This document shows, piece after piece, positions 55,954 through 62,664 of a stretch of DNA of 64,000 bases. How positions within the stretch are numbered: the stretch's first letter is position 1; each line of letters opens with the position of its first letter. A program made the translations under genes and the position numbers. Source of the stretch: Thermococcus sp. AM4 (lineage in GTDB: Archaea; Methanobacteriota_B; Thermococci; Thermococcales; Thermococcaceae); contig NC_016051.1 in NCBI RefSeq assembly GCF_000151205.2, positions 1,736,001 through 1,800,000 of the forward strand, read 5' to 3'. The notes under the pieces were generated by a model, which made no database searches, had not been told where the DNA came from, and worked only from the letters and a program-made list of their open reading frames with translations.

Positions 55954-56808
55954 TTAATGTTCTTTTCCCTGCACAGCTTTATGGCTTTGCTCGCTTAGAA
56001 CCTCCTTTACTAATTCTAGAACATCGTTCCATACGGTACTAAATTCTGGAAGTTCCCTCAACTGATGACCCAGACTGCTCTCCCAGGCCCTTTCATAGTA
56101 GGGCTTTCTACCTTGAAGGGCATGTATATCAGGTTCAACCCCCTTAGCCTCAAACTTGGGACGGAGTATCTGTGTCACACTTCTCAGGTCAGCAACGCTT
56201 TTTAGAAACCATATATCATACAAATCCCTCGGCCTCGTTCTCTGGAACAGAGACCTGATTTTCTCAGCCAGTATTTCCTCCAAGCTATAGGTCCTAACGC
56301 TTACCACAGAAAACCTTGGGCTGTCTGAATACCCATGCAGAATCGGCCTTTCTTGGAGGGGTAGCAATATCTTCTCGTACTTTTCGAGGGTTATGTCCAT
56401 CTTAATCTTCGGAGGATTTCCGGTTCTGCTGAGCAGTCTAAACGGAATCCGAACTTCAAACCCAAGAAGCTCTCCCGGAAAAAGCTTCACTCCGTATCTT
56501 GGCCTCAGTTCAAAATCAAGGAACTGAACGAGCCCCTCATTGGCCGCTTCAACGGCTTCGGCTATTTTAGCTTGGACATCCCCTATATCCGGCTCCTCTA
56601 AAAGCAGGGTGTAGTCAAGGTCCTCGGAAAACCGGTAGTCTGAAAAATAAGCTTTTTTCAGGCAGGTACCTCCCTTGAAGGCCAATATCCTCCAAAACTT
56701 TGATTTCCAGAGTCCGTAGAGCATCCAGCTTATAGCATAGTCTTTTTCAACAGTGGAACCCGGAACCCCAAGCTCAGAACTTAGGGCCTTTATCTCCTCC
56801 TCAATCAT
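55954..56808 (-). CDS. AbiEii-type nucleotidyltransferase toxin
   Basis: A 284-residue AbiEii/AbiGii family protein. FKGGTCLKKAYFSDYRFSEDLDYTLL carries the GG-x(9-12)-(S/F)EDxD-type nucleotidyltransferase motif, and SLEEILAEKIRSLFQRTRPRDLYDIW is the conserved helical signature. AbiE toxins are bacteriostatic nucleotidyltransferases paired with an AbiEi antitoxin. It starts by ATGA overlap with the antitoxin's last codons, with GGAGGTAGA upstream. The toxin frame itself looks intact. Confidence 0.88.
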   Translation of the reverse strand: MIEEEIKALSSELGVPGSTVEKDYAISWMLYGLWKSKFWRILAFKGGTCLKKAYFSDYRFSEDLDYTLLLEEPDIGDVQAKIAEAVEAANEGLVQFLDFELRPRYGVKLFPGELLGFEVRIPFRLLSRTGNPPKIKMDITLEKYEKILLPLQERPILHGYSDSPRFSVVSVRTYSLEEILAEKIRSLFQRTRPRDLYDIWFLKSVADLRSVTQILRPKFEAKGVEPDIHALQGRKPYYERAWESSLGHQLRELPEFSTVWNDVLELVKEVLSEQSHKAVQGKEH

Positions 56809-57574
56809 TCTACCTCCTCCCAATAATCCTCCGGAACATTAATCCTCAGGCCCCACCGATAGCTGAAGCGGCCTCCAGAGGGCATTGAGGGGTCGAGGAA
56901 TGCGAAGCTCTTCTTGTCATTTTCAGAAAGCTGGATTTCATTCTCAATCCCGAGCCCCAGCTTCTCACTTAAAAATCCCAAACGCTTCAGAATGGCCTTG
57001 CTCTTCATCCGTTCAGCATATTCCAGCAACTTTTCATAATCCAGCCTCGCGTTCTTGAGGGCCTTAACGACCTCGATTACTCCCCCGCAGTACTTAGGCT
57101 TGTCTAGACAGTCCACTATCGTCTTTTCTGGATCTGTTATCCGAACCTCCCTGCGTCCAAGCGTATGGTTCTAATTCCAAAAAACTTCTCAGGTCGGACT
57201 ACAACTACCCTGAACCTCTTGCCATCAAGTATCAAGAGCTCCTTGTAACCCCTCTTTACTGGAGTTTGGATGAAAACCGTTCTTGGAATCTGCTCTGTTA
57301 ACCCGTAGTAGTTGAGGGCGGACCAGTACGCAACTGCCCCGTTAGGCACCAACAACTGGCCTAAAAGGAACTCGTGAGGCGAAGAGGCCCTTCCAGGTTC
57401 TAAGGAGAGGGTGTAGATGCCCTTGGCGATTCTCCGAAGAAATCCCTCTCTGAGGAGAATGTTAAGGTAGTAGTTTAGCTGTCTTGTAGTTATGCCAAGC
57501 TTCTCTTGGGCCTCCTTCTTGGTGAAGACATCCCCCAGTTCAGAGAGCCTTCTTAGGACCTCTGTGGTATTCAT
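56805..57574 (-). pseudogene. AbiEi-type antitoxin, split by a frameshift near 57150
   Basis: The N-terminal part (57137-57574, 145 residues) has the winged-helix DNA-binding text FTKKEAQEKLGITTRQLNYYL and then the AbiEi core. It stops after RLDAGRFG. One base earlier in the run GGGAGG, the neighbouring frame continues EVRITDPEKTIVDCLDKPK and runs to 56805 (the downstream 103-residue frame). Joined, it gives a normal AbiEi of about 256 residues that overlaps the toxin. So one gene has an extra G, or the read has an error. If real, the DNA-binding half survives alone while the intact toxin is retained, which would be surprising. Confidence 0.75.
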
Positions 57575-60102: not shown

Positions 60103-60228
60103 TGGACTCACCATACTTATGAAGAAATCTTCACATATAAGTCTTGTGCAGGTATTTTCACAACACACGAAATTGTCTCATGAGGAATCTTTTTAACCAT
60201 TGAGAATTTTTTCATATGGGTGCGTGGC

Positions 60229-61155
60229 ATGAACGCAATCGAGGCGAAGGGCCTCACCAAGTACTACGGCTCGTTCCTCGCCGTCGATAACGTGAGCTTT
60301 AACGTGAAAACCGGCGAGATTTTTGGCTTTCTCGGCCCGAACGGTGCCGGAAAGACGACAACGATAAGAATGCTGACTGGAGTATTAACTCCCAATTCAG
60401 GAGAGATATGCGTTCTGGGCTACGATATGCTTGATGAGCGTGAGAGGATAAAAGCGAGGGAGAGAACAGGTATAGTCCCGGAAATGGCGAATCCCTACGT
60501 TGACCTAACCGCGATGCAGAACCTCCGCCTGATGGGCGAGCTCTACGGAATGAGAAAGGAAGAGATAGAAAAGCGTTCTATTGAACTCCTCAAGCTCTTC
60601 GGCCTCTATGAAAAGAGGAACATAAAAGTTCGGGGCTTCTCAAAGGGCATGAGGCAGAGGTTAATACTGGCCATGGCGATGATAAGCGACCCTGAGCTTT
60701 TGATTCTAGACGAGCCGACGAGCGGGCTCGACCCAATAAGCGCGCGAATGATAAAGGAAGTCATCCGCGAGGAAAAGAGAAACGGAAAGACGATATTCCT
60801 GACGACCCACAACATGGCCGATGCAAACGAGCTGTGTGAGAGAGTGGGCATAATAAGGAAGGGAAGACTCGTGGCCGTTGACACCCCTGAGAAGCTTAAA
60901 CAACTGGTGAAGGGCCACGTCTCCGTTGAGGTGAGCTTTGAGCCGATGAACTTCGACCCTTCGGAGATAGCTTCGGCCATCCGAGTTGAAGTGATGGGTG
61001 ACAAGGCGAGGGTTTTCACCGAAGATCCGGATGCAACGGTTAGGGAACTGGTCCACTACGCCGAGAGGAAGGGACTAAGAATCGTGAGTCTGAGGACGTT
61101 GTCTCCCTCACTAGAGGATGTCTTCCTAGCTCTGGTCGGTGGTGAAAATGATTGA
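60229..61155 (+). CDS. ABC exporter ATPase
   Basis: A 308-residue ATPase. Walker A is LGPNGAGKTTTIRML, signature FSKGMRQRL, Walker B ELLILDEPTSGLD and LTTHNMADANELC follows. The C-terminal 80 residues (VSVEVSFEPMNFDPSEIASAIRVE...) match the domain trailing many ABC-2/NatA-like ATPases. Overlaps the permease by 8 bases. Upstream TATA-like TTTTTAACC lies near 60190. Cargo unknown. Confidence 0.93.
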   Translation: MNAIEAKGLTKYYGSFLAVDNVSFNVKTGEIFGFLGPNGAGKTTTIRMLTGVLTPNSGEICVLGYDMLDERERIKARERTGIVPEMANPYVDLTAMQNLRLMGELYGMRKEEIEKRSIELLKLFGLYEKRNIKVRGFSKGMRQRLILAMAMISDPELLILDEPTSGLDPISARMIKEVIREEKRNGKTIFLTTHNMADANELCERVGIIRKGRLVAVDTPEKLKQLVKGHVSVEVSFEPMNFDPSEIASAIRVEVMGDKARVFTEDPDATVRELVHYAERKGLRIVSLRTLSPSLEDVFLALVGGEND

Positions 61156-61888
61156 GACTCTAAAGCGCTCATTTGCAATAGCCAAAAAGGACATGCTGAT
61201 ATTCTATATCAAGGGACCAGTCGTGATAATGGGCCTGATCTTCCCCTTCTTCCTCTTTTTAGCATTTCTCATTGGCAGAAATCTCTCGGGAGTCCAGCTT
61301 TTTGTTGGTTTGACGGCGATGACTGCCTTCTTTACCTCAACGGCAGTTGGTCCCACGATAATTCCCTGGGAGTGCAGGGGAAGGACCTTTGAGAGGCTCA
61401 TAACTGCTCCGGTCTCCCTAACTACAGTTCTCCTAGGCGACCTCCAGGCTTCCTTCTACTTCGGGCTGGCGATAACCCTCACGATCTCGATTCCCGCTGG
61501 TATTTACCTCTCAGTCCACCCCGGCTTCCTCACGTTTTTGGCCGCGACGCTCCTTGCAATTGGCTGTTTCTCGGCGATGACGATTCTGATGTCCTCCTAC
61601 CCACCCACGGACGTCCCAGCGGACATTATGATGATATCCTCGCTCGTCAAGTTCTCACTGCTCTTCATCAGCGGCATCTTTGTGCCCCTCGAAAAGCTCC
61701 CACCCTACGCGCGCTGGGTTTCCTACGCTTCACCGCTCACCTACTACGTTGATGCTCTCAGGCATTCCCTCGGGAAGGGTTACCTTCCGCTTCCGCTGGA
61801 CTTTGCTATGCTGGCCCTCTTTGGCTTCGCCTTCTTCCTCACGGGGGTGGGGATTCACAAAAGAGTCCTTGAGAGGAGGTTTACGTAA
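61148..61888 (+). CDS. ABC-2-type exporter permease
   Basis: A 246-residue permease with six helices of the ABC2_membrane family, including FTSTAVGPTIIPWECRGRTFERLITAPVSL, seen here as segments, and FISGIFVPLEKLPPYARWVSYASPLTYY near the C-terminus. GGTGGTG precedes ATG 61148. The 3' end carries the sequence that is repeated at 62600-62664. The TBP gene lies 54 bases downstream on the same strand, so both may share a transcript. Confidence 0.9.
   Translation: MIETLKRSFAIAKKDMLIFYIKGPVVIMGLIFPFFLFLAFLIGRNLSGVQLFVGLTAMTAFFTSTAVGPTIIPWECRGRTFERLITAPVSLTTVLLGDLQASFYFGLAITLTISIPAGIYLSVHPGFLTFLAATLLAIGCFSAMTILMSSYPPTDVPADIMMISSLVKFSLLFISGIFVPLEKLPPYARWVSYASPLTYYVDALRHSLGKGYLPLPLDFAMLALFGFAFFLTGVGIHKRVLERRFT
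61820..61884 (+). repeat. 65-bp direct repeat, copy in the exporter gene
   Basis: Bases 61820-61884 encode the C-terminal FGFAFFLTGVGIHKRVLERRF of the permease. They match 62600-62664 at 62 of 65 positions (differences at 61826, 61841 and 61882). The two copies are offset by exactly 780 bases and enclose the TBP gene. Confidence 0.92.
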
Positions 61889-61942
61889 GGGCCTTCCGTT
61901 AAAGTTAAGGTTCCCATTGTGAACTTTGATGCGGTGAATGAA

Positions 61943-62491
61943 ATGCCCCTTGAGGTTGAAAACGTGGTCGCTTCCATCGATTTACACGGTAAAATAGACG
62001 TCGAGAGGGTGGCAAGTGAATTGGACCCCGTGCACTACGACCCTTCTGTATTCCCAGGGGCCATTTACAAGATGGGATCCTTTGGGGTAACGTTTTTGAT
62101 ATTCTACTCCGGAAAGCTCGTCTGCACGGGGGCAAAGAGCGTTGAAACAATCAAAAGGGCCACTGAGGAGCTCAAACAGACGCTGGAATCCATGGGCATG
62201 AAGTTCAGGGGAAAGCCCGAGATACGTGTTCAGAACATCGTGGCTGCCGGCGATGCGGGTTTTAGGACGCTCGACCTTGACACTGTTGCACTAACACTTC
62301 CGAACGTTGAATATGAACCTGAAATCTTCCCCGGTGTGGTCTACAGGGTTAAAAACTCTAGGATAACGATTCTCATCTTTAACAGCGGGAAGATAGTCGT
62401 ATCAGGGGCAAAAACGGAGGAGGACATTCAGAGGGCCGTTAACGAGCTAATCTCGGAATTTAAAAAATATGGTTTGGTAGGTGGGGAATGA
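61943..62491 (+). CDS. TATA-binding protein, divergent paralogue
   Basis: A 182-residue saddle-shaped TBP with two pseudo-repeats: VENVVASIDLHGKIDVERVA...FPGAIYKM...LIFYSGKLVCTGAKS and VQNIVAAGDAG...VALTLPNVEYEPEIFPGVVYRVK...LIFNSGKIVVSGAKT. DNA-intercalating Phe positions (FPG and LIF in each half) are kept. It differs at many places from the highly conserved main Thermococcales TBP as I recall it, and lacks its acidic C-terminal tail. ATG 61943 is favoured by GCGGTGAATGAA just upstream; GTG 61919 would add eight residues. It lies between the 65-bp repeats. Confidence 0.9.
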   Translation: MPLEVENVVASIDLHGKIDVERVASELDPVHYDPSVFPGAIYKMGSFGVTFLIFYSGKLVCTGAKSVETIKRATEELKQTLESMGMKFRGKPEIRVQNIVAAGDAGFRTLDLDTVALTLPNVEYEPEIFPGVVYRVKNSRITILIFNSGKIVVSGAKTEEDIQRAVNELISEFKKYGLVGGE

Positions 62492-62599: not shown

Positions 62600-62664
62600 T
62601 TTGGCCTCGCCTTCTTCCTCGCGGGGGTGGGGATTCACAAAAGAGTCCTTGAGAGGAGGTTCAC
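62600..62664 (+). repeat. 65-bp direct repeat, downstream copy
   Basis: This is a truncated duplicate of the exporter permease 3' end, with FGLAFFLAGVGIHKRVLERRF in the same frame. Without a stop at the original position it continues about 20 codons to a stop near 62730. The preceding 62492-62599 is A+T-rich and contains ATGAAACGCGATGAAACGCG, a direct repeat of GATGAAACGC, and TTAAATTAATTTAA; no gene is visible there. Confidence 0.92.

Follow-up and report, generated by a model that had tools for sequence, protein, structure and literature searches.

A second TATA-binding protein in Thermococcus sp. AM4 and its relatives across the Thermococcaceae

Members of the Thermococcales are among the chief model organisms for in vitro work on archaeal transcription, and they are usually regarded as having one TATA-binding protein (TBP). 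In Methanosarcina, accessory TBP paralogues are present besides a main TBP. Paralogues of this kind also occur in haloarchaea, where extra TBPs such as Halobacterium TbpD stand beside the main protein and have been proposed to be specialised for stress or for particular promoters (PMC2121645). Further TBPs are encoded by haloviruses, among them HJTV-2 and HRTV-9. Two glutamates in the C-terminal lobe of TBP contact TFIIB or TFB, and these are often lost from viral TBPs (PMC7221094). For the canonical protein itself, the TBP of Pyrococcus woesei (1pcz, 1ais, 1d3u) is the structural reference with which the protein described here is compared.

The DNA analysed (the window, 64,000 nucleotides of the Thermococcus sp. 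AM4 genome) had been described beforehand as encoding an additional, divergent TBP beside an exporter, and both parts of that description are borne out by the present analysis. A search of the whole genome, 2,086,428 bp in one contig, found exactly four PF00352 repeats and thus two TBPs: the window protein, referred to below as TBP2, and a canonical TBP, or TBP1, to which it is 51% identical. The possibility raised at the outset, that the genome would hold no other TBP, did not materialise. An ABC ATPase and a permease lie directly upstream of TBP2 (Table 1).

Table 1. Features of the TBP2 locus and position of the canonical TBP gene; positions are those of the window unless a contig is named.
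Feature	Position	Strand	Evidence or remark
ABC-2 exporter ATPase, DrrA-like, upstream of TBP2	60229-61155	+	PF00005; TIGR01188 over its cut-off
ABC-2 exporter permease, upstream of TBP2	61148-61888	+	PF01061
Direct repeat (65 nt), copy 1, permease 3' end	61820-61884	+	95% identical to copy 2
CGTTAAAGTTAAGGT, BRE/TATA-like core-promoter element of TBP2 lacking a TTWTAW box	61897-61911	+	conserved in 16/16 TBP2 genes
Ribosome-binding site GGTGA of TBP2	61933-61937	+	sequence; GGTG at the same place in orthologues
Gene for TBP2 (P0001, 182 aa)	61943-62491	+	two PF00352 repeats
Direct repeat (65 nt), copy 2, truncated permease 3' end downstream of TBP2	62600-62664	+	sequence repeat
Canonical TBP (TBP1)	G000:C1:1888338-1888877	minus	whole-genome PF00352 search

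The start of TBP2 was placed at the ATG at 61943 because the starts of its orthologues agree and a ribosome-binding site precedes it. The two TBP half-repeats noted in the preliminary description were recovered by profile search (two PF00352 repeats, E 7.7e-53, 176.7 bits against a cut-off of 22.9), and the four intercalating phenylalanine positions that it considered kept are all filled in the alignment, by F37, F54, F129 and F146. An AF2 model of the protein has a pLDDT of 93.2 and was matched by Foldseek to P. woesei TBP (1pcz/1ais) with a TM of 0.93, which gives TBP2 the saddle fold. Residues N7, V9, F37, F54, V60, T62, N98, V100, F129, F146 and V152, which comprise the intercalating phenylalanines and the Asn, Val and Thr (or Ser) minor-groove contacts of TBP-DNA structures, are common to TBP2 and TBP1, and the TFB-binding glutamates E125 and E127 are invariant in 15 of 15 TBP2 sequences and the same in TBP1. 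TBP2 therefore agrees with the P. woesei protein in fold, length, phenylalanines, minor-groove contacts and TFB glutamates; it differs in being 51-54% identical, as it is to TBP1 proteins generally, in faster amino-acid change, and in some 30 fixed differences between TBP1 and TBP2 (36 and 15 sequences, respectively), none of them at base contacts. That identity accords with the divergence from a nearly invariant Thermococcales TBP first remarked upon. Among the fixed differences, read from TBP1 to TBP2, are E35S and Q128I, which lie in the N-terminal and the C-terminal stirrup, respectively. The absence of the acidic tail, also remarked upon earlier, holds for the window protein and its closest relatives but not for the family, since five other TBP2s end in LLEEDDEW-like sequences; the missing tail is therefore not a family-defining trait. 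With its DNA- and TFB-contact residues retained, TBP2 should bind TATA DNA and the host TFB, and the protein sequence offers no support for an altered reading of the TATA box.

Of 94 Thermococcaceae genomes, 16 carry TBP2; they belong to three genera and include Thermococcus gammatolerans (genome G019, which we take to be strain EJ3), and nearly all of them have a canonical TBP1 alongside it. The 15 full-length sequences are 61-100% identical to the window protein, and a sixteenth, in G003, is a fragment at a contig edge (71% over 63 residues). The proposed phylogeny placed the window protein in a TBP2 clade of its own: in a reduced tree TBP2 is monophyletic with support of 100/97 and TBP1 with 99/95, and the two are sisters when set against the remaining TBPs of the phylum, a grouping whose support (90/86) is moderate and not fully certain. 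A larger, full tree with very long branches left the sister group of TBP2 unsettled. As a sister outside the canonical Thermococcales TBP radiation, TBP2 is thus not a recent copy of TBP1. Pairwise dN/dS values of 0.04-0.17, for pairs with unsaturated dS, show purifying selection. Compared with canonical Thermococcales TBP, TBP2 is patchily distributed, has an atypical promoter and is apparently exchanged laterally together with that promoter. The lateral exchange is indicated by distances that are discordant with those of TBP1: between G062 and G022 the TBP1 genes are 96.6% identical in nucleotides (dS 0.17) and the TBP2s only 67% identical, whereas between G062 and T. gammatolerans the TBP2s are 94% identical (dS 0.25) and the TBP1 dS is 0.86. 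Old parallel copies with differential loss would account for the discordance less simply. Neither a second Thermococcus TBP nor the T. gammatolerans gene tg0829 (below) is mentioned in the searchable literature, the coverage of which lies outside subscription journals, and within that scope TBP2 is a previously undescribed family.

Several further TBP and TFB genes of the Thermococcaceae were seen in passing. In the draft genome G082 the sole full TBP found (L133, G082:C17:11384-11944) is divergent, with an insertion in its first repeat, and its long branch is placed close to TBP1. A TBP-like protein 36-39% identical to TBP2 is encoded beside an EVE-domain gene in G031 (L094:7853-8371) and G086 (L095:7782-8306), one of the two genomes presumably being T. 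barophilus; its N-terminal FPG is changed to YHG, and it is a candidate third TBP family, possibly tied to modified-base functions. G086, which looks like T. barophilus, also has a TFB gene (PF00382) on a small second contig (G086:C2:34231-34497) that is probably a plasmid-borne third TFB. Finally, two contig ends of G089 (C10 and C14; L097 and L098) hold extra TBP1-like gene fragments, each followed by a gene for a conserved protein of 146-166 aa, with a resolvase and a TnpB/Cas12f-like gene nearby, an apparent mobile-element setting.

The TBP2 genes share a distinctive core promoter. The motif AAAKTTAAGGT, more fully AA(A/G)(G/T)TTAAGGT, is located before all 16 of them and starts 44-45 nt before the ATG, as counted from the GTTAA start of the element, so that TTAAGG sits at the usual place of the TATA box. 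The usual TATA-type motif is TTWTAW (PMC5316973). In about 470 upstream regions from the fetched Thermococcaceae loci, AA(A/G)(G/T)TTAAGG occurs in the TATA window before TBP2 genes only (11/11), and the usual TTWTAW peaks there in about 90. Because the canonical tbp1 promoter is likewise strongly conserved, conservation of the TBP2 promoter is unremarkable by itself; the TTAAGG sequence and its restriction to these genes are what set it apart. A scan of 94 genomes gave no genome-wide excess of the AAAKTTAAGGT-type motif, the other exact matches inspected were mostly within or beside unrelated genes, and no common target set in the TBP2 genomes emerged among them. A TBP2 regulon acting through this motif was considered and set aside, being neither visible locally nor enriched genome-wide, and apart from the promoter of TBP2 itself no motif that might mark a regulon was detected. 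Autoregulation of tbp2 by its product is possible. After the promoter element, the window copy and close relatives also have an inverted repeat, GTTAAAGTT ... AACTTTAAC (window 61898-61906 and 61922-61930), which is perfect in G033 and absent from more distant TBP2 genes, and which is a possible regulator site. At 30-80 nt upstream of the canonical tbp1 gene (L005-L064) the A/T boxes CTTTAAAAA and ATTTATAAAGGGTTTTTAAA are both conserved, which hints that tbp may be autoregulated there.

In the window, the unit of promoter and TBP2 gene lies between the two copies of a 65-nt direct repeat, spaced 780 nt apart. In other genomes the 3' ends of the permease gene match the second copy at 72-82%. 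The repeat is likely a scar from insertion of the promoter and TBP2 together. About 5 kb upstream of TBP2 is an AbiEii/AbiEi toxin-antitoxin-like pair (window 55957-57574), as might be expected in a variable part of the genome. The exporter operon has its own promoter (window 60175-60228), in which a TTTTTAACC box is followed by a TGAA-TTCA dyad over the start region. The same promoter was found at loci L081-L087 and L140-L152, alike with and without TBP2, and the TGAA-n-TTCA dyad is likely a dedicated operator independent of TBP2. Orthologues of the exporter occur in many genomes that lack TBP2, and a role for TBP2 as controller of the exporter was rejected on both of these grounds.

Elsewhere the neighbours of TBP2 vary, and similar kinds of genes recur. 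TBP2 follows the ABC-2 exporter in the window and six relatives, and in G019, G021 and G062 a CDF metal exporter precedes it. In G019, G062 and G022 TBP2 faces a CO-dehydrogenase-like gene cluster, and in G089 radical SAM genes come after it. Genes for SBF/ACR3-like transporters, OsmC, Suf, FeMo-co-binding, TauE, TDT and ArsR proteins recur nearby, and the settings of TBP2 are islands of metal and redox stress genes. The T. gammatolerans locus can be related to published expression data. Its CzcD orthologue is tg0830, reported as not responsive to Cd in the Cd transcriptome paper (PMC3407056). Since the sole CDF gene of this genome adjoins TBP2 and corresponds to tg0830, TBP2 is tg0829 by gene order. 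Eleven genes on from tg0830 by count is an ArsR gene, tg0841, and farther on a winged-helix regulator, tg0849, and both are so listed in that paper, where tg0841 is reported to respond to Cd with a 13-fold and to Ni with a 39-fold induction (PMC3407056). The main text of the paper makes no mention of TBP2.

Against the systems described at the outset, TBP2 resembles the haloarchaeal and Methanosarcina paralogues in being an extra TBP beside a main one, with a proposed specialisation for stress or for particular promoters, but it is of separate origin, and among the plasmid TBPs of haloarchaea identity to it does not exceed 45%. It differs from these paralogues, too, in that only one additional copy is present, which has a core element of its own and no matching TFB expansion. 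Thermococcus genomes have two TFB genes with or without TBP2, no extra TFB accompanying it, and an expansion of TBPs and TFBs of the haloarchaeal type was dismissed because TFB number is unchanged by its presence. TBP2 is like the halovirus proteins in being an extra TBP on horizontally moving DNA; however, they are only about 31-32% identical to it, and TBP2 keeps the TFB-contact glutamates. Close relatives were absent from phage records (in which only halovirus TBPs were found), from viral contigs and, by DNA comparison, from plasmids. A viral or plasmid origin was rejected on this account, as was an orthogonal TBP of viral type, given the invariant glutamates and the lack of a relative in viral contigs.

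The reading that we favour, and regard as probable though well short of secure, is that TBP2 is a working accessory TBP, laterally exchanged, dispensable and used under particular conditions. It would bind ordinary TATA boxes and recruit host TFB1 or TFB2 and RNA polymerase. Its private promoter, perhaps under autoregulation, would be active mainly in certain situations, of which metal or redox stress is the most likely, and the protein would shift initiation by means of altered protein-facing surfaces, with no change in the DNA code that it reads. On this view the gene serves niche adaptation, is dispensable and passes between members of the Thermococcaceae. A special role is pointed to by the private promoter, the purifying selection and the repeated metal and redox islands. 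Promoter-selective transcription by TBP2 is a plausible hypothesis, to which the contact residues like those of TBP1, the lack of an extra TFB and the unchanged exporter promoter lend no support.

It is also conceivable, if unlikely, that TBP2 and the TTAAGG element are a semi-private pair, the element being a poor core for TBP1 and served by TBP2, in a positive self-loop with perhaps a very small regulon. AAAKTTAAGGT at TATA distance before every TBP2 gene, and before no other upstream region examined, would fit such a pairing, as would its retention when flanks and neighbours change, whereas the base-contacting residues are those of TBP1, no second target gene was found and, with the tbp1 promoter also well conserved, conservation alone proves little. 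We give a similarly low chance to TBP2 as a competitor or repressor, holding TATA boxes while recruiting TFB or RNA polymerase poorly or being deaf to regulators, and so damping transcription under stress; the intact DNA-contact face and the many changed outward positions, E35S and Q128I among them, are compatible with this, but both TFB-contact glutamates are invariant throughout the family. A redundant spare TBP, hitch-hiking in variable gene islands, is less probable again: its patchy presence, lateral exchange and lack of a visible regulon could be read in this way, but the low dN/dS values persist across long divergence, the promoter element is conserved to the base, and no disrupted copies were seen except contig-edge fragments. 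That the window gene is the main, divergent TBP of the organism or an assembly artefact is scarcely credible: nothing was found in favour of this reading, and it is refuted by the canonical TBP in the same single-contig genome, with independent genomes also carrying both genes.

The occurrence of a second TBP in about one-sixth of Thermococcaceae genomes renders the "one TBP" picture of these organisms incomplete. A bolder proposal, which we consider unlikely, is that TBP2 and its invariant TTAAGG element form a self-contained module of basal transcription that moves laterally, the TBP acting by preference on an atypical type of core promoter, of which its own would be at least one; if true, this would add a condition-specific initiation channel to the host TFB and RNA polymerase. 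The presence of TBP2 in cultured T. gammatolerans provides a tractable hyperthermophile system, in which it may be asked whether TBP identity alone can select promoters when no TFB has been added and the DNA-contact face is unaltered, and raises the possibility that basal factors spread as accessory genes.
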